A stretch of 42,915 nucleotides of DNA from Sulfurimonas sp. (GTDB lineage: Bacteria > Campylobacterota > Campylobacteria > Campylobacterales > Sulfurimonadaceae): contig JALUXP010000099.1 of assembly GCA_027013295.1 (NCBI GenBank), positions 1-42,915 of the forward strand, written 5' to 3'. How positions within the stretch are numbered: position 1 is the stretch's first letter; each line of letters begins with the position of its first letter. A program made the position numbers and the translations under genes. Positions 1-42,648 of the stretch are shown in pieces. The notes below the pieces were generated by a model. It was not told where the DNA came from, did not search any database, and was given only the letters and a program-made list of their open reading frames with translations.

Positions 1-124
1 AGTAAATAGCCCTATTGCGTCGTTAGATTTTATTGAATTAGCTACGGCTAGTCCTTCAAAAATCTGCCTAGCACTAGAGCTATTTACTTATTGCTGAAGT
101 TGGGGTTATTTATGGAGAAGCACT
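1..124 (-). mobile_element. Partial copy of the 265-bp inverted-repeat element (MITE-like), cut by the window edge
   Basis: These 124 bases are the exact reverse complement of 22759-22882, with no mismatch found by eye. They contain one internal stem-loop (arms with TAAATAGC and GCTATTTA) and one complete terminal inverted repeat ending in GAAGCACT at 124, followed by TA. The other half lies outside the window. No coding capacity is visible. The copy ends 15 bp before the cbpA start codon, so the ribosome binding site AAGGAT is the only cbpA leader sequence left beside it. Confidence 0.8.
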
Positions 125-139
125 TAAGAAGGATAGATA

Positions 140-1021
140 ATGGCAAAATCATTATATGAAACATTAGAAGTAACGGATAATGCAAGTGAAGCTGAAATTA
201 AAAAGGCTTATAGAAAACTAGCAAGAAAATACCACCCAGATGTTAACAAAGATAAAGATGCAGAAGATAAATTTAAAGAGATAAACTCTGCTTATGAGAT
301 ATTGAGTGATAAAGAGAAAAAGCAACAATACGACATGCATGGTGACTCTATGTTTGGCGGACAAAACTTTCATGACTTTTCACGCTCACATGGTGGTGGT
401 CAAGGTGACCTTGATGATATACTAAGACAAATGTTTTCAGGTGGTGGTGGCTTCGGTGGTGGAAATCCATTTGGTGGTGGAGGCTTTGGTGGAGGTTTTT
501 CACAACAGCATCAAGAACCAAACTTAGATATCCAAACAAGTGTCACCATACCTTTTAGTGTCTCTATTCTCGGCGGTAGTCATTCTGTAGCTGTTAATGG
601 AGATAGATTTGACATCAAGATTCCAGCAGGTGTCAAAAGTGGTGAAAAGATGCGTGTTAAAGGGAAAGGACACGCTCAGGGTGGTCGTGCTGGAGACCTG
701 TTTTTAAAGATAACAGTAGCTCCTAATCCTGAATACACTCGTGATGGTGATGATCTTATCAAAAGTTTTGATGTACCCTTAAAAGCAGCTCTTTTTGGAG
801 ATAAAATAGCCATAGCAACTTTAGACAAAGAGATAAAACTAAAGGTACCTCAAGATACTAAAAATGGACAAAGATTTCGTGTAAAAGAGATGGGTGCTAT
901 GAATAGAAAAACAAAAGTTCGTGGCAATCTCTATCTTGCTGCAAATATCATTTTACCAAAAATTGAAGATCTTGATGAAGAACTTCTAACAGTTCTTAAA
1001 GAAAAACTTCCACAGGAGTAA
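140..1021 (+). CDS. cbpA: DnaJ-class co-chaperone CbpA (J-domain protein without zinc finger)
   Basis: Stimulates the ATPase of DnaK and delivers unfolded clients in the cytoplasm. The N-terminal J domain (about residues 1-70) carries the HPD motif at 32-34. It is followed by a Gly/Phe-rich linker at about 73-120 and the two beta-barrel substrate-binding domains of the DnaJ C-terminal type (about 130-285). The CxxCxGxG zinc-finger repeats of full DnaJ are absent, which places the 293-residue protein in the CbpA/class B group. AAGGAT lies 7-9 bases before the ATG. The next gene, hspR, starts 3 bp after the stop, giving the cbpA-hspR order known from Helicobacter and Campylobacter. The upstream region is occupied by a mobile element, so the native promoter is not visible. 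Confidence 0.95.
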
Positions 1022-5658: not shown

Positions 5659-6193
5659 ATTTTATTTTTTATTATGGTTAAAGTGGATGTTACGAGTGAC
5701 TCTGTGCAGTGTAGCTCTTGCTATAGTAGTATCTCTTATGATCACTCTTTTCATATATCTACAGCAGTCGGCTAAACTGGATATAAATATGGAGATTTTA
5801 AAAGCACTCTTAGATATTTATTGGTTTTGGTTTGTACTTTCTTGGAGCGGGACTCTCTTAATTGCTCTTTTTAGGAGTTTGAAATATCTTTTTAATGTTT
5901 GTTTGGATGGGTATAAGCTGAGATTATTAAGTTGCGATACAAAAGAGTTAGTGCATCATATAGGCTATGGAGATCTACTCAAAGTATGGCGAAAATGGTT
6001 TATGCTTCTTATCTGGATAGTCGCTTCTATGATGATTGTGTCTCTTGGCATTACATACTTCTTGAGCGATTACAGTAGTGTGTTTGAATGGTTTAATATA
6101 TTTTGGCTTTTTGGTTTTGTGCTTATATCTGGATATTTTTCATTGATACTCATGATAGCGAAGTGTAAAAGAGTAGAGCTTGTAAAATGTTGA
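5648..6193 (+). CDS. Hypothetical membrane protein, four predicted TM helices
   Basis: Unknown function. The 181-residue protein has strongly hydrophobic stretches at about 7-37, 54-75, 118-140 and 153-173, consistent with four inner-membrane helices, and a cytoplasmic-looking loop (about 80-115) with charged residues. Translation could start at either of the two adjacent ATG codons; AAGAAG in the end of the upstream gene can serve as ribosome binding site. Its stop overlaps the start of the following exonuclease gene, so the three genes are likely co-transcribed. Confidence 0.75.
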   Translation: MMSRFYFLLWLKWMLRVTLCSVALAIVVSLMITLFIYLQQSAKLDINMEILKALLDIYWFWFVLSWSGTLLIALFRSLKYLFNVCLDGYKLRLLSCDTKELVHHIGYGDLLKVWRKWFMLLIWIVASMMIVSLGITYFLSDYSSVFEWFNIFWLFGFVLISGYFSLILMIAKCKRVELVKC

Positions 6194-6879
6194 TCTTTTT
6201 AGATGTGGAGACTACTGGTTTAGATGTAAGTGACAAGATAGTCTCTATAGGACTTGTAGTTGTTGATGAAGAGATTAGCACGGAGTATAGTGCCTTAGTC
6301 AATGAGGGTAAAAAGATACCACCTAAAGCTTCAAGTATCCATCATATAACAAATGAGATGATAAAAGATAAAAGCTTGTTGCGAGAGAGTGAGCCTTACA
6401 TATTTTTAGAGAGTTTTAACCAAACTGGTGTATGTTTAGTTGGGCATAATATTAATTTTGATTTGAAGAAGCTTTATGATAGTGTGGGTTTTGAGTGGCA
6501 GGGTGAGATGGTTGATACTCTGAGAGTTTCAAAGCATCTGCTTCCTGAGAGTGAAGAGTTCTCTTTGCAGTTTTTACGCTATGATTTAAAACTTTATAGA
6601 GATGAAAAAGAGCCGATTGTCATACATGATGCTCTGAGTGATGCAAAAGTTGTAAAATCTCTTTATGAGTATCTTCTGACTCTTGCTTCAGATGAAGAGC
6701 TTCAAAGACTCAGTTTTGTCAATGTGCTTATGCAAAAATTTGAATTTGGTAAGTATGCTGGGCGTTATATAGAAGAGATTAGCATGTTAGACTCTAGTTA
6801 TCTGCAATGGATGTTAAACAACATAATGGATTTGGATGAAGATTTACGATATAGTATCAAACATTATTTACAGGGATAA
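6187..6879 (+). CDS. DnaQ-like DEDDh 3'-5' exonuclease with a C-terminal accessory domain
   Basis: Predicted to remove nucleotides from the 3' end of DNA or RNA. The three exonuclease motifs are present: FLDVETTGLD at the N-terminus (Asp6, Glu8), GHNINFDL, and HDALSDAK (HxAxxD, so the DEDDh subclass). After about residue 180 comes a separate segment with FGKYAGRYIEEI and SSYLQWML, a pattern often found behind DnaQ exonuclease domains (DUF3820-like). The 230-residue size and lack of a polymerase-binding tail argue for a stand-alone nuclease rather than the main Pol III epsilon subunit. The ATG overlaps the upstream stop by 7 bp. Confidence 0.85.
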   Translation: MLIFLDVETTGLDVSDKIVSIGLVVVDEEISTEYSALVNEGKKIPPKASSIHHITNEMIKDKSLLRESEPYIFLESFNQTGVCLVGHNINFDLKKLYDSVGFEWQGEMVDTLRVSKHLLPESEEFSLQFLRYDLKLYRDEKEPIVIHDALSDAKVVKSLYEYLLTLASDEELQRLSFVNVLMQKFEFGKYAGRYIEEISMLDSSYLQWMLNNIMDLDEDLRYSIKHYLQG

Positions 6880-6882
6880 AAT

Positions 6883-7239
6883 TTGAAAATATTTATTGAA
6901 TGTAAGTCTCCATTGATGCAAAAATCTATGGAGATGTTTTTAAAAGATTATCTTAGTGCATCAAGGCAATGTGACATAATACTCAGAGATGAAAAATGTC
7001 TTAATGATGAGCGATGTTTTTATGTCTCTACAAAAGGAGATGCTGATTTAGTGAAACCTTTCACTAAAGCACAGCTAGTTTTTGCACTTGAAAAAAAATA
7101 TAAAATGCTTCAGCAAGCTTTGTCTGTGGAGGACAACAGTGGCTTGAGCTTTGAAGTCTTAGAAAAAAGGATAGCCTACCTAACTCAAGAATATCAAGAA
7201 AATATACTCAAGGCAGTCAAAGCATTTTATGAAAAATAA
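6883..7239 (+). CDS. Conserved hypothetical protein, 118 aa
   Basis: Not assigned to a family. The start is TTG, 3 bp after the exonuclease stop, preceded by CAGGGAT. The first 80 residues alternate hydrophobic beta-like and helical stretches (MKIFIECK, CDIILRD, CFYVST, KPFTKAQLVFAL), similar in layout to a small receiver-like alpha/beta fold but without acidic pocket residues. The end is helical. The last 11 bp overlap rsmD. Confidence 0.7.
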   Translation: MKIFIECKSPLMQKSMEMFLKDYLSASRQCDIILRDEKCLNDERCFYVSTKGDADLVKPFTKAQLVFALEKKYKMLQQALSVEDNSGLSFEVLEKRIAYLTQEYQENILKAVKAFYEK

Positions 7240-31120: not shown

Positions 31121-31271
31121 ATTCTTCAATCACAAAAACAATTTTTCTTTTAATTCATATCCTTTAACCATTGTCTCAGTATTAGCATTGTAAGCTTATG
31201 CAATTAATAGTCTTCTTCCCTCTGAGATGCCTCTAGGTTGTGTAAGAAGTCTAATTTTACGGAGGTTAAGT

Positions 31272-31700
31272 ATGTCAAAAAGTAAAAATGGCGTAAGTAC
31301 AGATGGTCTAACTTTTTTAGATGACGGTGAAGTGTTATATGATGATTTATATCTTTTAAGTGAGACAGATGAAAAAAGTATAGTGTTGTACGCAAGTGAT
31401 TCTTTTCTGAAAATTGCCAATATGACACCTGATGAGTTGATCGGTCAACCACACAATGTAGTTCGTCATCCAGATATGCCACGCGCTGCCTTTAAGTCAC
31501 TCTGGAAGGATGTCCAAGAAAAGGGCTTTTGGACAGGGTATGTTAAAAATGCTCGCAAAGGTGGTGGTTACTATTGGGTTTATGCAACTGTCCTTCGCTC
31601 TATTGACAAAAGTGGAGCTATCAAGTATGTAAGTATCAGAGTGAAACCTTCTCGTGAAGATATTAAAAAAGCCGAAGCACTTTACGCTACGCTAGATTAA
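31272..31700 (+). CDS. Aer/CetB-like soluble PAS protein
   Basis: Probable redox or energy sensor feeding the chemosensory array. The single PAS domain of the 142-residue protein has the Aer-type signature: FLKIANMTPDELIGQPHNVVRHPDMPRAAF, then LWKDVQEKGFWTGYVKNARKGGGYYWV, in which the NVVRHPDMP and W residues line the FAD pocket of Aer. There is no HAMP, membrane or MCP part, so it resembles CetB of Campylobacter, which works with a separate receptor protein. The ATG at 31272 has GGAGG 9 bases upstream. It is the first gene of the long chemosensory unit; the soluble MCP follows after 14 bp. Confidence 0.88.
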   Translation: MSKSKNGVSTDGLTFLDDGEVLYDDLYLLSETDEKSIVLYASDSFLKIANMTPDELIGQPHNVVRHPDMPRAAFKSLWKDVQEKGFWTGYVKNARKGGGYYWVYATVLRSIDKSGAIKYVSIRVKPSREDIKKAEALYATLD

Positions 31701-31714
31701 AAAGGAATTAGATT

Positions 31715-33598
31715 ATGGCACTAGTGAAAAAAAATACACCATCAGTGAGTTCATTTGCAGCTTCAGGACCAGATAAAAGAAAACAAAGAACTTTAGCAAA
31801 ACAACAACAAATCTCTGAGAGTATCGCAGGGGTTGCGATGACAATCCTTGATAATGCACAAGAGAGCGTCAGTGCTATTGAGGAGCTCAAATCTTCAATG
31901 GAACAAATTGCGACTGCTGCCGAGGAGAACTCGGGAGCAAGTGAACAAGCACTTGCAAATGTAAAAAGTATAAACTCAAATATTACACGGATGAACTCAA
32001 GTATTACGACCGTAATATCATCTACCCTCTCAACAGGTGATAGCATTATGGCTTCTGTTGATAAGATTAATGAGTCTGTTGTTCGTATGGATAAGGCAGT
32101 TGTAGTTGCAAAAGATTCAGCGACAAAGAGTGAAGAGCTGAAAGTGAGTTCACAAAATATTGGGGATGCTGTTGGTTTCATCGCAAAGATTGCAGATCAG
32201 ACAAATTTACTTGCTCTCAATGCTGCCATAGAAGCCTCGAGAGCAAAAGAGCATGGAAAAGGTTTTGCAGTTGTTGCAGATGAGACTCGTGCTTTAGCTG
32301 GTGAGAGTGAGAAAAATGCAGAATTTATCTCAGAGCTTGTAACAAAAATCCAATCTTCAATAGATGACATCATAAACTCCATTGGCGATACTACAGGCAT
32401 CATCTCTGAGAATGGTACAAAAGGAAATGCTTTAAGTTCTAAAATGGAGGAGCTTACTAAGATAGCTATCTATTCGGTTGAAGCCGCAAGAAGTGTTAAT
32501 ACTTATACTCAAAATCTTGGCGATATTGTTGCTAAAATTAATGATGGAAGTCAGGACATAGCAGATGCTTCTGCTTCTATAGCAACTTCAGTAGAAAAAA
32601 CACTTAATGGTATAGAGATTCAGTCAGATGCTCTTGCACAGACAGAAGATGACATCAAAGACCTTTCATCTCTTGCAGAGGAGTTAAAGTTTTCAACAGA
32701 TACTATGAAATCAGCTGAAGATATAGCACTCTCAGCAGATACTATTGGTGGCAGTATGGAAGATATCCAAACAGCTTTAGAGGATGTAACAAATGCCCTT
32801 AACCAGATAGAATCATCTTCACATACAACAAACCAAAGTGCACTAACAAATAAAGAACTCATCGATGCTGGAATAGTAGCAGCAAAAGACATAGATAAAC
32901 TCATAGAGATAGCAAGAAGAAATTTCGATATCTTAAAAGTCTCTTTCAATGTAGTTAAAGCAAGTGTAACAGAGATTCGTGAAGCTTTTGGAGATTCTAT
33001 CTCTAAAGGAAACTCAGCCGCTACTGAGCTCAATGTCATAGTCAAAGAAACAAAAAGTGTAGATAAAACAGTGGGCAACATCTCTAACTCCATAGTGCAA
33101 CTTAACATGCTTGCAATCTCTGGTTCTATTGAAGCAGCAAGAGCTGGTGACTTTGGAAAAGGTTTTGCCGTTGTTTCTGCAGATATTCGTAACCTTGCTA
33201 AAGATTCTGAGAGCAATACTGAAAAAATCAATGATATCGTTGAATCAATGAACTCAGAGATAGATACGGTAAAAACAGACTGGACAAATCTTCTTGATTC
33301 TCAAGGAAGTGAACAGTCAAACATAGATACTCTCATCAATGATATTACAAAGATTACAGATATGCTTGTGGATTTGCTTGACCGTTACACTGGGCTCAAA
33401 ACTGTCAATGATCAAAACTTAGAGGGGATGAATCAAGTAAATATTGGTGTCAATGAAATTCAAAAAGCAATAGAGTTAAGTGCAAGAAATGCGATGGAAT
33501 CCCGTAAAGCGAGTGAACTTATCATAGAGACAGTATCGCACATAGGTGAGGGTGTAGAAGAGTTGGCAGTGATGGCAGATGAACTTCAACAAGGTTGA
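31715..33598 (+). CDS. Soluble methyl-accepting chemotaxis protein with two signalling tips
   Basis: Cytoplasmic chemoreceptor without membrane segment. The 627 residues are almost all coiled coil. A canonical hairpin tip lies at about 160-190 ([19 protein letters not shown], then [15 protein letters not shown]). A second, diverged tip lies at about 457-490 ([19 protein letters not shown], then [15 protein letters not shown]). Normally an MCP has one. There is no clear separate sensor domain, so the signal may come from the neighbouring PAS protein, as in the CetA/CetB pair. AAGGAAT precedes the ATG. Confidence 0.88.
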
Positions 33599-33620: not shown

Positions 33621-34985
33621 ATGCAAATCCAAGAGATTTTAATTATTAAAAATAACTCTGAGAATTTTGGAATATCAACTCAAGATATAAATCAAATTTT
33701 TAGGGTACCTGATATTATGCCACTTCCCCTCCGACCAAAAGAGGTTAGAGGTTTAAGTGTATTGGGCGGTAATATTGCAACTATTTTGGACATAAATATG
33801 CTCTTAGGTATAGGAAAAGTTGATGAGAATAATGATCTCTCAAGACTTTTATCTTTAACTAACGAACACTCTGTAAATGCTTTGCTTGTGAGTGATGTTT
33901 ACAATACAGTCACTATAAAAGAGGAGCATATTGAGTATATAGATAGAGCTGATGATGCAGTTATAGCTATCTATAAACATAAAGATTTGATAGTACAGAT
34001 TTTATCTCTTGATGCACTCTTTGCAAAGATAAAAAAAGTAAATATCAAGGCAAAAGAGATCCATGAAGCTAAAGCTAAAGAGAGAAAGATAGTAGAAGCC
34101 CCATCAAGAAGATTTCTCATATTTAAGATGTCTAGGGAACGCTTTGCAATAGATATAGACTTTTTACAAGAGATTATTTTAGCAGAGACTACTTTTACCG
34201 AGATAACAGGTTCACGAGATGAGATTATAGGTCTCATTACCCTTAGAGATGACTTGATAACTGTGATAGATTTACGGGTATATTATGGATTTGAAAAATT
34301 TAAAAGTGATAAAAATCGTATTTTAATCACTACGGTCAATTCAAAGACAGTGGGGCTTTTAGTAGATGAGATTGTTGATATTAAAAACTTTTTAGATAAA
34401 GATATAGAATATATGGGAAATGAATTTGACAAAAGTAAAATATCTGGTGTCTTACATGATGAAAATTCACTCATATCTTTCTTGGACGATAGTGTAATAT
34501 GTGATTTGATTAAGGTTAATGAATCTTATATCGATACAAAAGAAGAGCTTGAATCTCAAACTCTTGATGATGAAGATGCTCTTGAGTTTATTATCTTCAA
34601 GTTAGAAGATAAAGAGTATGCTTTTGAGGTAGATAAAGTAGCTGAGATCATAGACTCTGTTAAACCAACTGATGTTGTGATGACAGATAAAAAGATTGAT
34701 GGTGTTATCAACATTAGAGGGCAGATTGTTCCCATTGTTTCTTTATTTAAAATCTTAGGGATAAATAAGAAATCTGATGCAGACTCTAAAATTATAGTGA
34801 CAGAGATAGATGGTGATAAAGTGGGTTTTGTTGTAGAGAGTGTAAGTGATATACTTAAAGTAAATCAAACAGATATAAAACCTCAAGAAGATGAGCTTTT
34901 AACAGATGTATTACATCTTGAAAATGGAGCGAAGTTGGTTATGAGGATGGACATCGAGAAGATGATCCAAAGTAAGGGAAGATAG
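33621..34985 (+). CDS. CheW-type coupling protein with three CheW domains
   Basis: Scaffold that links receptors to CheA. The 454 residues contain three successive CheW folds: about 1-140 (EILIIKNNSENFGIS, VRGLSVLGGNIATILDI), about 160-300 (RRFLIFKMSRERFAID, IIGLITLRDDLITVIDLR) and about 312-450 (EFIIFKLEDKEYAFEV, IDGVINIRGQIVPIVSLF). Domain 3 keeps the canonical NxRGQIVPI turn that contacts receptor and CheA P5; domains 1 and 2 deviate there. A Lys/Ala/Glu-rich helix links domains 1 and 2. cheB follows without a gap. Confidence 0.88.
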   Translation: MQIQEILIIKNNSENFGISTQDINQIFRVPDIMPLPLRPKEVRGLSVLGGNIATILDINMLLGIGKVDENNDLSRLLSLTNEHSVNALLVSDVYNTVTIKEEHIEYIDRADDAVIAIYKHKDLIVQILSLDALFAKIKKVNIKAKEIHEAKAKERKIVEAPSRRFLIFKMSRERFAIDIDFLQEIILAETTFTEITGSRDEIIGLITLRDDLITVIDLRVYYGFEKFKSDKNRILITTVNSKTVGLLVDEIVDIKNFLDKDIEYMGNEFDKSKISGVLHDENSLISFLDDSVICDLIKVNESYIDTKEELESQTLDDEDALEFIIFKLEDKEYAFEVDKVAEIIDSVKPTDVVMTDKKIDGVINIRGQIVPIVSLFKILGINKKSDADSKIIVTEIDGDKVGFVVESVSDILKVNQTDIKPQEDELLTDVLHLENGAKLVMRMDIEKMIQSKGR

Positions 34986-36041
34986 ATGGCAAAAAAAGTT
35001 TTAATAGTCGATGATTCAGCATTAGTAAGAAAGCAACTTAGCACCATTGTCTCTGAGATAGGTTTTGATGTAGATGTAGCTAAAAATGGTCAAGAGGCTG
35101 TTGATATGGCAGTTGAGACTGACTATAGTGCCATCACTATGGATATAAATATGCCCGTGATGGATGGCATCGAAGCTGTAAAGCAGATCATGGAGAAAAA
35201 TCCATCAGCTATACTTATGGTAAGCTCATTGACAACGGCTGATGCAACTATTACAATGGATGCACTTGATTTGGGTGCTATAGATTATGTATCTAAACCA
35301 GGAACTATGAATATTGGAAAAGTTCAAAATACTGAAGATATTATTCAAAAAGTCAAATCACTCGCACGAATACCTAAACGAAGACTCCAACGCATCAAAA
35401 AAGTGCAGCCGATGCGAGAGAGAAGAGTAGCACAACAAGAAAAAAGTACAAGCCTTACTTCTAAAGATATACAAAAAGTGATTCTTGTCGGTTCATCAAC
35501 AGGAGGTCCTGGTCTTATAGAACAGATCTGTGCATCAGTGCCTGCGAACTATAAGTACCCAATCTGCATTGTCCAACATATGCCCGAAAAATTTACAGCA
35601 GCCTTTGCTACAAGACTCAATCGCTCCTCCGCACTTAGCGTTCATGAAAGTAGCTCAAATATGGAAGTCATTCCAGGAAACATCTATGTAGCTAGGGGTG
35701 GTGTCCATATGAATTTCGCAAAAAAAACATCTGGTAAGATTGTGATCCGTGAGGACAAAGAGAAGGGCAATGGTTACTTTATGCCAAGCGTCAATGAGAT
35801 GATGCTCTCTGCCATAGATGTTTTTAAACCAGAGCAACTCGTAGGGGTGCTTTTAACAGGGATAGGTGATGATGGCGCTCTTGGAATGGTTGAGATGAAA
35901 AAAAGAGGCTCTTATACGATAGGTGAAAGTGAAGAGAGTGCAACAGTTTATGGTATGCCCAAGGTTGCCTTTGATAATGGTGGTGTGAGTGAACAGTTGG
36001 ATTTTAAACAGATCTTACATAAAATAGCGACAATGAAGTAG
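34986..36041 (+). CDS. cheB: Chemotaxis response regulator / protein-glutamate methylesterase CheB
   Basis: Removes methyl groups from receptor glutamates and deamidates Gln residues, activated by CheA. The receiver domain (residues 1-120) has Asp9, Asp10 and the phosphorylation site Asp53 in TMDINMPVMDG, with Lys at SKPG. After a basic linker comes the esterase domain with the triad Ser171 (GSSTGGPG), His198 (VQHMPEKF) and Asp near 294 (LLTGIGDDGALGM). The receiver is notable because CheB of Campylobacter jejuni lacks one. AAGGGAAG precedes the ATG. Confidence 0.95.
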   Translation: MAKKVLIVDDSALVRKQLSTIVSEIGFDVDVAKNGQEAVDMAVETDYSAITMDINMPVMDGIEAVKQIMEKNPSAILMVSSLTTADATITMDALDLGAIDYVSKPGTMNIGKVQNTEDIIQKVKSLARIPKRRLQRIKKVQPMRERRVAQQEKSTSLTSKDIQKVILVGSSTGGPGLIEQICASVPANYKYPICIVQHMPEKFTAAFATRLNRSSALSVHESSSNMEVIPGNIYVARGGVHMNFAKKTSGKIVIREDKEKGNGYFMPSVNEMMLSAIDVFKPEQLVGVLLTGIGDDGALGMVEMKKRGSYTIGESEESATVYGMPKVAFDNGGVSEQLDFKQILHKIATMK

Positions 36042-36049
36042 AGGTTAGT

Positions 36050-36673
36050 ATGGCATTAATAAAAAAACATCAAAAACAGATTGTAGATGACCTGCCAGAG
36101 TTTGCTACGCTCAATGAAGCGATAGAATACTTTCAAGAGAGTGATGATTCTGCAAAGCAAGATTATGCCATAGAGGAGATTGGTAAATTTCCTGATGGTG
36201 GTAGTTTTTTAGTCTCTCTCATCGACCATGAGGAGGTAGAAAAAAATATATCTACAAAAGTAGCCTCAGTTGTCTCAAATATGGATCCCGATGATGCTCC
36301 CGTAGAAGAGATTATGGAGCTGTTGAAGTTAAATAATGCTTATGTGAGAAATCTCGGCATCTCAATACTGAGAAATTTTGGTACGGCGATCAAGTATTAC
36401 ATAGTAAAATTTCTTATTGGTGATGATAGAGATTTGCGTATCTTTGCCATCAATGTACTAGGAGATGTGGATTTTGCAGAGTCTAGGGAGATGTTAGTTG
36501 AACTTTTAGAAAAAGAGAAAGATATCAATGTCGCGATGACCGCAGTTGATTATATGGGTGAGATAGGTGAGATGGAAGATATCCCTTTACTTAAAGCACT
36601 TAAAACAAGATTTGAAGATGATGTTTATGCACAGTTTGCCGTTGATGGGGCGATCAAAATGATAGAAGGATAG
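36050..36673 (+). CDS. HEAT-repeat-like protein of the chemosensory operon
   Basis: The 207-residue protein is a stack of alpha-helical repeats, visible in LLKLNNAYVRNLGISILRNFG, FLIGDDRDLRIFAINVLGDV and LEKEKDINVAMTAVDYMGEIG, with the Asp-x-x-x-Arg/Ala pattern of HEAT/PBS-type repeats. Such repeats bind proteins, and HEAT proteins are found in some alternative chemosensory clusters. It lies 8 bp behind cheB and 3 bp before cheR, so it may tether the adaptation enzymes to the array; that role is inference. Confidence 0.75.
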   Translation: MALIKKHQKQIVDDLPEFATLNEAIEYFQESDDSAKQDYAIEEIGKFPDGGSFLVSLIDHEEVEKNISTKVASVVSNMDPDDAPVEEIMELLKLNNAYVRNLGISILRNFGTAIKYYIVKFLIGDDRDLRIFAINVLGDVDFAESREMLVELLEKEKDINVAMTAVDYMGEIGEMEDIPLLKALKTRFEDDVYAQFAVDGAIKMIEG

Positions 36674-36676
36674 GGT

Positions 36677-37507
36677 ATGGCACATCTTTTATCTACAGAA
36701 AATTTTGAAAAGATTGGTGAGTTTATCTACCGTAAAAGTGGGATTCATCTTGAAAAGGAAAAACATTACGATAAGTTAGCAAAATATATAGATAAACGAG
36801 CAGTAGAATTAGAAGTTGATAATTTTAGAAAATACTTTTTTAAACTCCGTTTTGATGATAAAGATGGAATAGAGTTTCAAGAACTTATGAATGCTGTTAC
36901 AGTAAATGAGACCTACTTTTTTAGAGAAAAAGATCAGTTTGAGGTGTTAGTAGAGAGCATCTTGCCAGATTTAGATAAAATCATGCCCAAAAATAGACCA
37001 CTTAGAATTTTATCCTCACCATGTTCAACGGGGGAAGAACCATACTCCATGATACTTCACATAGTAGAAGAGGGTGAGTTGATAGAGCGAAGAGATGTTG
37101 AGGTGGTTGGTATAGACATCGACTCTACAGTTATAGAAAAAGCTCAAAAAGCTCGTTATACTGAGAGATCTGTCCATGCAATACCAAAAGATATTTTAGG
37201 GAGATGGTTTGTGAAGAAAAATCTAGGTTATCAACTTGGCGATGATCTGATGGGGACTGTGGATTTTCAAGTAGCAAATATCTTTGATAAACAGATGATG
37301 CGTAAGCTTGGAAAATTTGATGTAATATTTTCAAGAAATATGTTGATATATTTTGATGATGCCTCAAGAAAAGAGGTTGCAATGACCTTTTATGATATGC
37401 TCAACCCTGGAGGTTATGTACTTTTAGGTCATGCAGAGTATATGAGTAGGATTGTTTCAGTATTTAACGCTAAGAAGATGGGAAGAACACTCGTTTATCA
37501 AAAATAA
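36677..37507 (+). CDS. cheR: Chemotaxis protein methyltransferase CheR
   Basis: Methylates glutamates of receptors with S-adenosylmethionine. The helical N-terminal domain (residues 1-85) precedes the methyltransferase domain, with TVNETYFFREKDQFEVL, the SAM loop ILSSPCSTGEEPYSMIL, VGIDIDSTVIEKA, and SRNMLIYFDD. The length of 276 is normal. There is no C-terminal pentapeptide-binding extension. Together with CheB it shows that the array has full methylation-based adaptation. Confidence 0.95.
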   Translation: MAHLLSTENFEKIGEFIYRKSGIHLEKEKHYDKLAKYIDKRAVELEVDNFRKYFFKLRFDDKDGIEFQELMNAVTVNETYFFREKDQFEVLVESILPDLDKIMPKNRPLRILSSPCSTGEEPYSMILHIVEEGELIERRDVEVVGIDIDSTVIEKAQKARYTERSVHAIPKDILGRWFVKKNLGYQLGDDLMGTVDFQVANIFDKQMMRKLGKFDVIFSRNMLIYFDDASRKEVAMTFYDMLNPGGYVLLGHAEYMSRIVSVFNAKKMGRTLVYQK

Positions 37508-37510
37508 AAA

Positions 37511-37747
37511 GTGAAGCTGAATTTGCTTGAAAGTCCCAAGGACTTTGAACCAAGTTCAGCTAAGGACTTACTTCCGAAGGTATTATACCTTAAGAGTGCT
37601 TTTCACTCGGATGAGCTTGTAGTATCTGGAAGTATGGATAAGTTACAAAAAAAGTTAAAAACAACATTATTAGAAGCGAGATCAAAAAGAGATTCGTTTT
37701 CTGGTAAGTTAACTTATGAAGATGAGAATGAAATAGAATTTTTCTAG
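37511..37747 (+). CDS. Small hypothetical protein between cheR and cheY, 78 aa
   Basis: Unknown. The start is GTG, 3 bp after the cheR stop, without a strong ribosome binding site. The product is charged, soluble and probably helical in its middle (MDKLQKKLKTTLLEARSKRD), with an acidic end. Its place inside a tightly spaced chemotaxis operon argues that it is a real gene and a partner of the neighbouring proteins. Confidence 0.6.
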   Translation: MKLNLLESPKDFEPSSAKDLLPKVLYLKSAFHSDELVVSGSMDKLQKKLKTTLLEARSKRDSFSGKLTYEDENEIEFF

Positions 37748-37755
37748 GAGATATT

Positions 37756-38121
37756 ATGGCAAAGATTATGGTTGTAGATGATTCAAAAACAGTGAGAAGT
37801 TACCATGGCTCTATACTTAAATCGTTTGGTTTAGAAGTGATTGAAGCAGAAAATGGTATGGAAGCATTGGAAAAAAGTTTAGATAATATTGTAGATCTTT
37901 ACTTAGTAGATGTAAATATGCCTGTGATGGATGGGTACTCCTTCATTGGTGAACTCAGAAAACAAAAAAACCATGAGAGAGTGCCAGTTATCATGATAAC
38001 AACGCAAGCAAAAGATGAAGATAAAGCATCAGCATATCAGGTGGGAGCAAATCTTTTTGAGACGAAGCCTATAAGACCTGAGCAGTTAAAAGCATATATT
38101 GATATCTTAGTAGAGATGTAG
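37756..38121 (+). CDS. CheY-type single-domain response regulator
   Basis: Receiver-only output or sink protein phosphorylated by CheA. The 121-residue protein has the acid pocket VVDDS (Asp8, Asp9), the phosphorylation site Asp52 in LVDVNMPVMDG, Thr82/Thr83 in MITTQA and Lys104 in ETKPIRP. It could switch the flagellar motor or another effector; nothing in the sequence decides this. AGGAGA precedes the ATG, 8 bp behind the small hypothetical gene. Confidence 0.93.
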   Translation: MAKIMVVDDSKTVRSYHGSILKSFGLEVIEAENGMEALEKSLDNIVDLYLVDVNMPVMDGYSFIGELRKQKNHERVPVIMITTQAKDEDKASAYQVGANLFETKPIRPEQLKAYIDILVEM

Positions 38122-38130
38122 GGAGAAGTT

Positions 38131-40875
38131 ATGGATCCATTATTAGAACAGTTTTTAGGTGAAGCAAGAGAAAATCTCTCGTTTATTGATCAAAATATAG
38201 AGAGTATTGGTGGTGATGACCCTGAACTTTTAAACTCTGTCTTTCGTGCAGCACATACCCTTAAAGGTGGGAGTGGTATAGTTGGTTTTGAATCGGTCAA
38301 AGAGATTACACACCATGCAGAAGATCTTCTCGATATGTTACGCGGTGGAAAACTAGAATTTGCTGAGTCAATGATTGAAGCACTTTATGATGCTTTTGAT
38401 GAGGTGTTAAACCTCATTGAAGCAGCAGAGGAAAGCGGTGGCATTGTAGAAGCAGATGAGGAGCGTGTAAATTCCATAGTAGCAGCACTCAATGAACAAA
38501 TGGGTAAGGATGTTGAAGTGGAGCAAGAGTGGCAACTTCCATTTACGCTCTTAGAAGACAAATCACAAATCATCAACTTCCCGTTACACTCGTTGTCTGG
38601 TGCATCCTCTATCAAGCTACCTTTTAATAACACCACTATAGATGAGAATTTTGTTGGTACACAAAATTTTTATGGTGTTTTATTTGACATAGATGAATCA
38701 TGTATGGTCTATGGCAATGACCCTATCTATGCACTTTCTCTTTTAGGTAAAAATGTGCTAGGTATAAGTTCTTGCATGACAAATGAAAATTCAAAGGCAA
38801 TCTTAAGTGGTACAGAAGATGAAGATGGACTCCTTTTAAAAACACAACTTGTTGCTTTTGTCTATGGTACTTACGGTGAGATAGAAGAGGCTCTTTTTAA
38901 CTTTAGTGATGAGATGGAGCTTTTAGCATTAGATATCAATACTTTGTTGCAAGTAGATATGGGAGATAGTGGTCACCCTATAGACTCCCTTAAAGAGTTA
39001 AGTGATATAGCGGATGATTTTGATCTACAAACAATCGTTGATGAGGTGAAGAACTCTTTAGAATTAGTAGGTAAAGATACTATCCAATACGCACAACTTC
39101 AAAGATTTTTGGATATATCTGGGCTTATTAAAGATGAAGATACTTCAAAGTTGGGTAGTTTTTTCAAGGGTCTTCATAAGGGAGAAAAATATTCTAGTGA
39201 TCTAGCCTCAACTACTCAAGCTCAGGCAAAACCACTTGAACAACCCTCCGAAGAAACACCAAAAGAAGATGAAGAGTCTCAAATAGATACAAATGAACAT
39301 ATTGAGCTTATCTTACAAAATATGTACGAGCAACAGTATAGAGCATTAGACTTTTTAGAAACTGCTAGTGATTTTGAACGAGTAAAGTCTATATTGGCAA
39401 AGATGAAAAAATATCTTCCAGATATTCCAAGTGATTTCCAAACGAAAGAGGATTTGAAGAACTTTATTGCTAAAGAGCTTGGTAAAGAACTTGTTGAGGT
39501 ACAAAAAGAGGAGATAGTTCAAGAGGAAAAAGTAGTTGTAGCACAAAAAGTCCAAGAGGAAAAAGTGCAAGAAAAAACGCCATTTTTAAAAGAAGAAACT
39601 AAAACAACACCAAAAATTGTAACCAAAGCAACACCTACTACCCATAAGAAAGAAGAGAAAAAATCAGTAGTTGGTAAAACAGTCAAAATCGACCAAGAGT
39701 CTATAGATTCGCTCATGAATGTTGTAGGGGAACTTCTTGTTGCTAAGAACTCATTGCCATATTTGGCTGACAATGTGATTGGTATGACTCACGATATGAT
39801 AAAAAGGGAGATTATGGAAAAATATATCTTCATCAATCGCCTCTCAGAACAACTCCAAGATCTCATTATGGGTATGAGAATGCTCCCTATTTCGTATGTG
39901 TTTGACAGATACCCAAAACTCGTTCGTGATATATCAAAAAAACTTGGTAAAAAAGTGAAACTTGAGATGGATGGTGGGGAGACTAAACTCGATAAAAATA
40001 TGATAGAGATGTTAGCAGATCCTATGATCCATATTATGCGTAATTCACTTGACCATGGTATTGAGATGCCAGATGTACGAGAGAAAAAAGGGAAGCAAAG
40101 TAATGGGCTTGTGAAGCTTTCAGCTTTTGCCCAATCAGATAAAATCATCATCCAAATTATAGATGATGGTGCAGGAATTAATGTCCAAAGAGTTGCAGAT
40201 AAGGTTTTAGAAAAAGGTCTTATGACTTCTGAAGAGATTGATAAACTGAGTGAAGATGAGATGGCAGAGTTAGTCCTTCTTCCTGGTCTCTCAACCGCGG
40301 AGTCCATTACTGAGTTTAGTGGTCGTGGTGTTGGTATGGATGTTGTGAAAAAATCTATAGAGAATTTTGGCGGGACTATCGGTATCAAAACCAAAGCAAA
40401 CATTGGAACGACTATCACTCTGAGTATCCCTGTTTCACTTGCTGTTACCTCTTTACTTCATATTCTTATGGACAATATCCATTATGGTATCCCAATGGAG
40501 AGTGTGAGCGAAACAGTGAAAATCTCTAGCGATGAGATAGAGTATCTACATAATGAACCATTTATCTATATCCGAGGAGAGGTGATCCCTCTTCTTTTTA
40601 TTGACTCGATGCTTGATAAAACAGATATGAAAGACCACCCACTTTCCATAGTTGTTTTAAATATTAAAGACAATATGTTAGCTGTTGTTGTCAATGAGTT
40701 TTTAGGACAACTCGATGTTGTGCAAAAACCATTGGTTGGCATCATGGAAGCACATCCACTTTTTAGTGGTACAGCACTGCTTGGAAATGGTCAGATTATC
40801 ATCTCTATAGATCCATTAGGGTTACTGGGAATCTCAGCGAGTTTAAAAGAAAAAATAGATTCTGAGGTAGCATAA
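38131..40875 (+). CDS. cheA: Chemotaxis histidine kinase CheA
   Basis: Cytoplasmic kinase that phosphorylates CheY and CheB. The Hpt domain has the phospho-accepting His42 in FRAAHTLKGGSG. A long middle region (about 150-450) has no recognised P2 domain, and a Lys/Glu/Val-rich repeat linker follows (about 450-520). Then come the dimerisation helix pair (NVVGELLVAKNSL), the ATPase with NSLDHGIE, IDDGAGI and GRGVGMDVVK, and a C-terminal CheW-like P5 domain (about 770-905). At 914 residues it is longer than usual. There is no receiver at the C-terminus, unlike the CheA-Y fusion of the standard epsilon cluster. Confidence 0.95.
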   Translation: MDPLLEQFLGEARENLSFIDQNIESIGGDDPELLNSVFRAAHTLKGGSGIVGFESVKEITHHAEDLLDMLRGGKLEFAESMIEALYDAFDEVLNLIEAAEESGGIVEADEERVNSIVAALNEQMGKDVEVEQEWQLPFTLLEDKSQIINFPLHSLSGASSIKLPFNNTTIDENFVGTQNFYGVLFDIDESCMVYGNDPIYALSLLGKNVLGISSCMTNENSKAILSGTEDEDGLLLKTQLVAFVYGTYGEIEEALFNFSDEMELLALDINTLLQVDMGDSGHPIDSLKELSDIADDFDLQTIVDEVKNSLELVGKDTIQYAQLQRFLDISGLIKDEDTSKLGSFFKGLHKGEKYSSDLASTTQAQAKPLEQPSEETPKEDEESQIDTNEHIELILQNMYEQQYRALDFLETASDFERVKSILAKMKKYLPDIPSDFQTKEDLKNFIAKELGKELVEVQKEEIVQEEKVVVAQKVQEEKVQEKTPFLKEETKTTPKIVTKATPTTHKKEEKKSVVGKTVKIDQESIDSLMNVVGELLVAKNSLPYLADNVIGMTHDMIKREIMEKYIFINRLSEQLQDLIMGMRMLPISYVFDRYPKLVRDISKKLGKKVKLEMDGGETKLDKNMIEMLADPMIHIMRNSLDHGIEMPDVREKKGKQSNGLVKLSAFAQSDKIIIQIIDDGAGINVQRVADKVLEKGLMTSEEIDKLSEDEMAELVLLPGLSTAESITEFSGRGVGMDVVKKSIENFGGTIGIKTKANIGTTITLSIPVSLAVTSLLHILMDNIHYGIPMESVSETVKISSDEIEYLHNEPFIYIRGEVIPLLFIDSMLDKTDMKDHPLSIVVLNIKDNMLAVVVNEFLGQLDVVQKPLVGIMEAHPLFSGTALLGNGQIIISIDPLGLLGISASLKEKIDSEVA

Positions 40876-40882
40876 GGAAGAG

Positions 40883-41647
40883 ATGATGACTGATTTTATA
40901 GTATTTAGTGTTGCTAAAAATAGATATGCAGTAAGCATAGAGCATATTATACGCATAGTTCATGGTGAAAACCTCACCCAAGTTCCTACCTCCCACAAAT
41001 ACATAGATGGGATTATGTCCTACGAAGATTCTATTGTAAAAGTGTTGAACTTTAGAAAACTTATAGAGATGAAAAGTTATGAAGTTGAGCTTGTTGAGTT
41101 GTTTAGAAGGTTGAAAAAAGAACATATTGATTGGTTAGATGCACTTGAAGATTCACTGCTTAGGGGAGTGGAATTTACAAAGACTGTAAATCCCCATCAT
41201 TGTGAACTTGGGAAGTGGATAGATAATTTCACTTCTTATGATGATGATATCGCTATTTTATTGAATCAACTAAGTGATTATCATAAACAATTACATATCA
41301 AAGGTGGAGAACTTCTTGATATTTCTGTACAGGATAAGCAAAAAGCTAAAATGTTATTTGAGACGGAGATGCAAAATACATATAAGCACACATTGGGTAT
41401 CATTGACTCTTTTATGTCGCAAATGGATAAGGTATCCAACTCCTTGCAAAAGTTACTCATATATGAGTCAAAAGAAAAAATTTTTGCTATCAAAGTGGAT
41501 GCAATAGATGATATAGCTCATGTAGATGCCTCGCAAATAATGGATACTGATGATGAAAGTTCTAGCGAATTTTTAGAGTTTAGTGGTGTTTTAGACCTAA
41601 ATGGTGTTTTAATCAATGTAATCTCAGAACTAAGATTACCAAAATAA
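40883..41647 (+). CDS. CheW coupling protein with a CZB zinc-binding domain nested inside
   Basis: Residues 1-63 match the first half of a CheW fold (FIVFSVAKNRYAVSIEHIIR; YIDGIMSYEDSIVKVLNFRKL) and 188-254 the second half (LLIYESKEKIFAIKVDAIDDI; FSGVLDLNGVLINVISEL). Between them lies a four-helix CZB domain with the zinc ligand pattern His81, Cys107 in HHCELGKW, His134 and His138 (YHKQLH). CZB domains bind zinc through three His and one Cys and sense zinc or hypochlorite in known receptors and cyclases. Here the sensor sits in the coupling protein. The start is the first of two adjacent ATG codons behind AAGGAAG. Confidence 0.85.
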   Translation: MMTDFIVFSVAKNRYAVSIEHIIRIVHGENLTQVPTSHKYIDGIMSYEDSIVKVLNFRKLIEMKSYEVELVELFRRLKKEHIDWLDALEDSLLRGVEFTKTVNPHHCELGKWIDNFTSYDDDIAILLNQLSDYHKQLHIKGGELLDISVQDKQKAKMLFETEMQNTYKHTLGIIDSFMSQMDKVSNSLQKLLIYESKEKIFAIKVDAIDDIAHVDASQIMDTDDESSSEFLEFSGVLDLNGVLINVISELRLPK

Positions 41648-41657
41648 AGGGGATAAG

Positions 41658-41927
41658 ATGGCAATAGCATACGATGGAGAAAAAGCAAAATTTTCAGCTG
41701 TAATCTACGAAGATGAAGTGATACCTCTACGAGAGTATCTTCAGGAAAAAGCTTCTACGGAGATAAAATTTGATTTTAAAGAGTGCGATGATATACATTT
41801 AGCTGTATTACAACTCATCATGGCATACAAAATGAATTATAGTGCATCTTACTCTTTCGCAGAAGAGATAAAAACATTTGAGTTAGTATTAAAGGGATTT
41901 GTAGAGAGTGAAAACAATTGTAATTAG
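41658..41927 (+). CDS. STAS-like small protein of the chemosensory operon
   Basis: The 89-residue protein has the outline of a STAS/anti-anti-sigma fold: VIPLREYLQEKASTEIKFDF, then ECDDIHLAVLQLIMAYK, resembling the strand, Ser/Thr loop and helix of MlaB-like domains. The usual phosphorylatable Ser/Thr before the helix is replaced by His/Leu, so it is probably a binding module. GGGGAT precedes the ATG, and the next gene starts inside its last 20 bases. The family call is moderate. Confidence 0.6.
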   Translation: MAIAYDGEKAKFSAVIYEDEVIPLREYLQEKASTEIKFDFKECDDIHLAVLQLIMAYKMNYSASYSFAEEIKTFELVLKGFVESENNCN

Positions 41928-42648
41928 TAATCGTAAAGGTGGCAGTGCAAAAACAACTACTGCTGTCAATATAGCAAGTGGACTTGCCAAAAAAAATTCA
42001 GTGCTTCTCCTTGATTTAGATACTCAAGGTCATGCCTCTATTGGTGTTGGTTGTGAGCCAAGTGAAGATCTTGGAGTGCATTCTATCTTTGAAGGGAAAA
42101 CTTTAAGTGAGACCTTTATCCCTACTGTGCATCCTAACCTTACTCTCTCTCCTGCACTAGCACTTTTTGATGTGTATGAGTATTCAGACCTGAGGGGTGT
42201 ATTAAAGTCAAGGTTTAAAAGAGAGAAAATAGCTGAGTTTTTTGATTATTGTGTCATTGATACACCTCCAACCTTTGATGCACTTCTTAAAAATTCACTT
42301 GAGGTAGCTGATGCTGTGGTAGTACCTTTTGTTCCGCATCACCTCGGTGTAGTAGCAGTTGGGCAGATGATGCGTGCTGTATATCAAAGTGCAAAAGATG
42401 TGGGTAGAGAGTTGGCAGATGTTTCTATACTCCCAGTTATGTACAACCCTCACATAGTAGAGCATCGTGAATCTTTAGCTAAGGTGAAAACATCATTTGG
42501 AGAGGAAAAACTCCTCTCACCTATAGGTATAGATATAAAACTGGCACAACAATTTGAGTCAGGATCTCCCATCATTTTAGATGAGAAACGCTCAAAAGGT
42601 ATGAAAGATTATAAAAGTTGCGTTGAAGAGCTTTTAAAAAGATTATAG
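41908..42648 (+). CDS. ParA/Soj-type ATPase linked to chemotaxis
   Basis: P-loop ATPase that dimerises with ATP and positions cargo on the nucleoid or cell pole. The deviant Walker A box is NRKGGSAKTTTAVNIA (KGGxxKTT), Walker A' is LLDLDTQGHAS, and Walker B is YCVIDTPPTFD. The start is GTG, preceded by AAAGGGAT, overlapping the STAS-like gene by 20 bp. No ParB and no parS-like site are near. In Vibrio and Rhodobacter, ParC and PpfA of this family place chemosensory arrays, so the same job is likely here; that is inference from context. Confidence 0.88.
   Translation: MKTIVISNRKGGSAKTTTAVNIASGLAKKNSVLLLDLDTQGHASIGVGCEPSEDLGVHSIFEGKTLSETFIPTVHPNLTLSPALALFDVYEYSDLRGVLKSRFKREKIAEFFDYCVIDTPPTFDALLKNSLEVADAVVVPFVPHHLGVVAVGQMMRAVYQSAKDVGRELADVSILPVMYNPHIVEHRESLAKVKTSFGEEKLLSPIGIDIKLAQQFESGSPIILDEKRSKGMKDYKSCVEELLKRL

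Follow-up and report, generated by a model that had tools for sequence, protein, structure and literature searches.

What role does a CZB zinc-binding domain play when it lies inside the fold of a CheW coupling protein? The question is raised by a Sulfurimonas sp. gene on a 42,915-nt stretch of DNA (contig JALUXP010000099.1, assembly GCA_027013295.1), here called the window. The open reading frame spans exactly positions 40,883-41,647 of the forward strand, on which all window genes below also lie, starts with ATG 7 nt after cheA and encodes 254 amino acids. According to the original prediction, made from the sequence alone, a single CheW domain is split into halves on either side of a full CZB domain, such a sensor could switch array coupling by zinc or oxidant without a receptor, and the arrangement looks rare.

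One CheW fold around a CZB domain

Sequence and structural model together establish that the 254-aa protein consists of one complete CheW, one complete CZB and short linkers. The Pfam CheW profile (PF01584, E=5.7e-16) matched in two stretches, the best being residues 5-67, equivalent to positions 2-64 of the 138 in the profile. The first CheW half (aa 1-62; 40,883-41,068) and the second half (aa 188-254; 41,444-41,644), which holds the second Pfam stretch, are each modeled with five strands. Between them lies an insert of aa 63-187 (41,069-41,443), predicted to comprise linkers and a CZB four-helix bundle and absent from 13 orthologues of the genus; its Pfam core (PF13682, E=1.1e-9) covers residues 81-144 (41,123-41,314) and scores 38.9 bits against a gathering cut-off of 29.4. 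Using a profile of 17 orthologues, residues 4-62 were aligned with residues 14-72 of the solved CheW structure 2qdl, and the second stretch (189-248) was aligned weakly with 2qdl 82-140. Because the flanking stretches align in this way, the insert of ~125 residues takes the place of a loop of about ten residues in 2qdl.

The AlphaFold2 model was built from a shallow input alignment of six rows (window proteins and the relative L007), mostly CheW domains, and has a mean pLDDT of 68; most of the flanking sequence exceeds 80, and the insert lies at about 47-62. Its secondary structure runs from five strands (2-10, 13-18, 22-27, 41-47 and 50-56) through four helices (66-94, 105-116, 121-144 and 149-187) to five further strands (190-196, 199-205, 207-215, 231-239 and 242-250). 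With the insert trimmed, the flanks aligned with 2qdl over 136 residues in VIA-align (Z 17.5, rmsd 2.2 A; model 1..254); their two five-strand subdomains close as one complete CheW fold. The possibility that the flanks do not form a CheW fold is contradicted by this alignment, and the claim of a single CheW domain split around a CZB is thus borne out by Pfam, predicted structure and structure alignment alike. The insert is modeled as a helical bundle that matches CZB: alone, it aligned with the DgcZ CZB structure 3t9o (Z 10.3, 111 residues over 66-183), at an insert pLDDT of only about 47-62 and with similar scores for other helical bundles in the PDB, the fold being a common one.

All four residues of the 3His/1Cys motif named in the original prediction are present when the residue letters are checked. 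The predicted zinc ligands are His81 (41,123-41,125), retained as histidine in 27 of 30 homologues, Cys107 (41,201-41,203; cysteine in 29/30), which is also the predicted reactive cysteine, His134 (41,282-41,284; histidine in 28/30) and His138 (41,294-41,296; histidine in 28/30). These columns are conserved at 0.90-0.97, where the insert averages 0.53, and so are among its best kept. At least one ligand was lost in four of the 30 nested homologues: three histidines in G055, His134 and His138 in G431, His81 in G063, and both His81 (to Cys) and Cys107 (to Ser) in G068. Given these losses, severe in G055 and G431, some inserts may be passive. Hypochlorite is a known stimulus for the CZB domains of host-associated bacteria; as the relevant stimulus for CheW-CZB here it is unsupported. 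The CZB cysteines of TlpD and DgcZ are described as zinc/oxidant switches (PMC6715182, PMC8262984).

The CheW part carries a charge-swapped residue pair that is common to CZB-bearing and CZB-less members. Every aligned CheW that this operon encodes in the genus has arginine at the site of Arg24 (40,952-40,954), G090 has lysine there, and Glu48 (41,024-41,026) is glutamate in all aligned CheWs of the operon except G107, which has asparagine. By alignment with the E. coli sequence, we take these positions to match Glu38 and Arg62 of E. coli CheW. The salt bridge between the two E. coli residues keeps the receptor site and the kinase site aligned (PMC3828127). Other nested homologues have glutamate at the Arg24 site and arginine or lysine at the Glu48 site, and G248 and G486 keep the Glu/Arg order. 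We infer that the salt bridge may be preserved in the window protein in reversed form, as Arg24-Glu48.

An operon with F9-class signatures

The cluster opens with a stand-alone PAS protein (31,227-31,700; Pfam PAS_3, E=1.1e-12), followed by a DosM-type receptor with two MCP signaling domains (31,715-33,598; two MCPsignal stretches), in which no sensory domain was recognized, and a triple CheW protein, CheW3 (33,621-34,985; three CheW stretches). CheB (34,986-36,041), identified from its translation and with orthologues in the same place in most loci, a HEAT-repeat protein (36,050-36,673; HEAT_2, E=2.6e-13), CheR (36,677-37,507; E=1.7e-49) and CheY (37,756-38,121; Response_reg, E=1.8e-26) precede CheA (38,131-40,875), to which Pfam assigns Hpt, dimerization, ATPase and CheW-like P5 domains. 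Downstream of cheW-CZB are an 89-aa protein (41,658-41,927), a conserved neighbor across loci that had no Pfam or NCBIfam match, and a ParA-like ATPase (41,908-42,648; AAA_31, E=1.1e-28), and the last cluster gene in the window is the start of a response regulator. Between cheR and cheY (37,507-37,756), a further CheY-like gene stands in most relatives and is missing here; that gene is ~33-36% identical to the window CheY.

A double-signal receptor DosM and a triple CheW are the signatures of the F9 class (PMC9321776, PMC7534058). Judged from the tandem signaling domains of its DosM gene and from its triple CheW gene, the window operon is assigned to the F9 class of chemosensory clusters. The F9 arrays of Vibrio cholerae form double layers in the cytoplasm, and deletion of the F9 cheA gave no phenotype under standard conditions; DosM homologues mostly have no sensory domains, and hence the array depends on further chemoreceptors or sensory proteins (PMC9321776, PMC7534058). 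The proposed switching without a receptor is not borne out as stated, since the operon encodes the receptor DosM. Because this DosM has no recognizable sensory domain, input from a sensor by way of CheW gains plausibility, but it would not be receptor-free.

The same genome has a second chemosensory cluster on contig C113 (L074), with small genes behind cheA (5761-7028). By eye, these resemble an MNT/HEPN toxin-antitoxin pair. A second copy of the cheA tail, with the look of an additional CheW half, flanks them; the arrangement may stem from an insertion accompanied by duplication or from the assembly. This cluster also encodes another soluble sensor fusion, a PAS-CZB protein of 279 aa (L074 7155-7994), whose CZB score is just below the Pfam cut-off.

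The insert across the genus and beyond

Among 135 genomes of the genus, this cheW was found in 51 and DosM in 49, a near one-to-one co-occurrence. By our own tally of the search matches, 38 of the 51 have the CZB insert, full or partial (contig ends truncate some of the matches); the other 13 encode a plain CheW of ~143 aa, both halves of which are 49-65% identical to those of the window protein. Nested and plain forms have the same operon position beside cheA in the loci that were read. In two genomes, G068 (L057 11717-12773) and G455 (L120 3683-4713), the order is reversed and the 89-aa gene lies between cheA and cheW-CZB; apart from this swap, both clusters are unchanged. G078, the nearest relative in which the operon is complete, has a DosM 95% identical to that of the window and is CZB-less, and L007/S010, closer still to the window, has the CZB. 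The G078 DNA aligns across both cheW halves with a gap at the CZB site and no visible scar. Natural CZB-less orthologues of this kind show that the flanks by themselves make up a complete CheW, and comparison with them is the strongest proof of nesting.

An origin of the gene by chance, assembly error or frameshift was ruled out, as the same architecture is present in 38 genomes of the genus and in other families. Outside the family, G107 has a nested CheW-CZB within the same operon type, and G248 and G486 have it in the layout CheA - DosM-like - CheW-CZB - CheB - CheR, a cluster in which no triple CheW was found in either genome. In these loci (L122 9953-12632; L123 3529-6219) the DosM-like gene stands directly before the nested CheW-CZB; a DosM-like gene with nested CheW-CZB where no triple CheW was found is a possible separate F9-like layout. 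Nested genes also occur outside this operon in G019, G059 and G089, the G019 copy not being in a che cluster. A scan of named genome contigs gave one partial relative, L007. On plasmids, the query P0001 matched no relative and the first three weak matches to G248 as query were plain CheWs; the search of viral contigs found no relatives. In G288 (L125 11548-12696), from another genus of the family, two CZB-less CheWs flank the 89-aa gene, and this pairing is a local duplication.

Presence or absence of the insert requires at least seven changes on the tree built from nine further proteins of the operon, all of them forced by well-supported branches, and three changes on the tree of CheW flanks, on which a single CZB-less clade was not rejected by the AU test (p 0.54); these trees fix neither the root nor the direction of gain versus loss. 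On the CheW-flank tree the CZB-less G078 is placed next to the window (support 86/57), which favors loss in place. G041 and G076 group there with the other alleles that have no CZB, in conflict with the operon tree, a sign that some alleles were exchanged. The tree of the insert itself mostly follows the operon clades. The insert has come and gone repeatedly across the genus. Our reading, in which the direction is unproven, is that the nested architecture is old and would have undergone repeated loss in place, with some alleles passing between species; swaps of the whole cheW gene may account for only part of the with-and-without pattern.

Possible roles of the nested CZB and known systems

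The reading to which we give a probability of roughly 50% is that the protein is a CheW of the F9 array with a CZB sensor in the loop between its halves, supplying the sensory input of the array. The CheW part would sit in the array baseplate next to CheA, and the CZB would read the zinc-thiolate state of Cys107, that is, intracellular zinc occupancy or oxidation. Altered helix packing would then be passed through both linkers to the CheW halves and shift CheW-CheA or CheW-DosM contacts, thereby altering CheA activity, so that CheW-CZB would supply the input that DosM cannot. The nested CheW-CZB directly behind the DosM-like gene in G248 and G486 supports an input role, while the 13 of 51 species that have the cluster and do without the insert count against a sensor, and the stand-alone PAS protein of the same operon is a rival source of input. 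Somewhat more tentative is the broader idea that F9 input arrives via the coupling protein, with a zinc/redox switch in CheW setting CheA activity, DosM acting mainly as a scaffold, and species gaining or losing the input by one inserted domain.

The CZB could instead be a structural or dimerization module that cross-links CheW units or spaces the double-layer baseplates, with zinc stabilizing the fold only. Pairing of CZB domains via helix 1, an interface described for the DgcZ CZB (PMC8262984), is in line with this, and so is the persistence of the degenerate inserts of G055 and G431, as expected if shape outweighs zinc. However, the zinc ligands are among the most conserved columns of the insert and the same 13 species keep the cluster without it, and we regard a purely structural role as unlikely. 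We consider it similarly improbable that a permissive loop tolerates the insert as a near-neutral domain, which lineages are now losing. The seven or more state changes on the operon tree and three on the CheW-flank tree, the clean CZB-less alleles and the ligand decay in some lineages would all fit such drift, yet 38 of 51 genomes keep the insert, most of those sampled with all four ligands, conservation of the zinc-site motif far exceeds that of the remaining insert, and nested forms are met again in other families and within another cluster layout.

A role outside the F9 array, in which CheW-CZB enters the main chemotaxis system's membrane arrays and modulates swimming, seems to us the least credible of these alternatives. 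The genome does carry other sets of CheA, CheW and receptors, and in another species the same arrays can contain paralogues from two chemotaxis systems (PMC6759762). The conserved neighborhood with cheA, dosM and cheW3, the near one-to-one occurrence with DosM and a charge-swapped pair that differs from E. coli CheW all speak against it. A nested sensor input to the F9 array points to the zinc or redox state as a concrete candidate stimulus of F9 arrays, and the genus offers ready-made controls in the form of the same operon with the insert, without it, and with degraded zinc sites. If this reading is true, array input can enter through CheW instead of a receptor, here by insertion into the fold.

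The expectation of rarity held only in part. The combination is uncommon but already cataloged: in PMC8262984, CheW-CZB is a CZB subgroup making up 1.4% of 10,140 sequences and most abundant in Clostridia, PMC10653840 lists it as known, and it is the majority form of this cheW in the genus (38/51). No paper beyond these two came up when full texts were searched for the fusion. The window protein has the same two domains in one protein as that subgroup, and among NCBIfam families its CZB is nearest to a diguanylate cyclase model, a match that fits cluster III of PMC8262984. The available texts of PMC8262984 and PMC10653840, figures and sequence sets aside, do not describe a nested topology, although the members of the subgroup may be nested too, and that of PMC8262984 describes neither an F9 setting nor a CZB-less orthologue of CheW-CZB. 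As far as the accessible papers go, the fusion is therefore known, and the nested topology and F9 setting are undescribed.

The Treponema denticola CheWS protein, for which input through CheW has been proposed, likewise has a sensor fused to CheW in the array baseplate, but this is a CheR-like SAM sensor appended at the C terminus, with another ligand and in another system class (PMC10653840). V. cholerae cluster I (F9) shares the double-signal receptor and triple CheW (PMC7534058, PMC9321776); the baseplates there are reported to be made up of CheA and triple CheW, whereas the window cluster adds a single CheW with CZB, as well as HEAT, PAS, ParA and 89-aa proteins. Helicobacter pylori TlpD and E. 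coli DgcZ share the CZB with its 3His/1Cys motif, which in those proteins lies at the end of a receptor or a cyclase and in the window protein lies inside a coupling protein.
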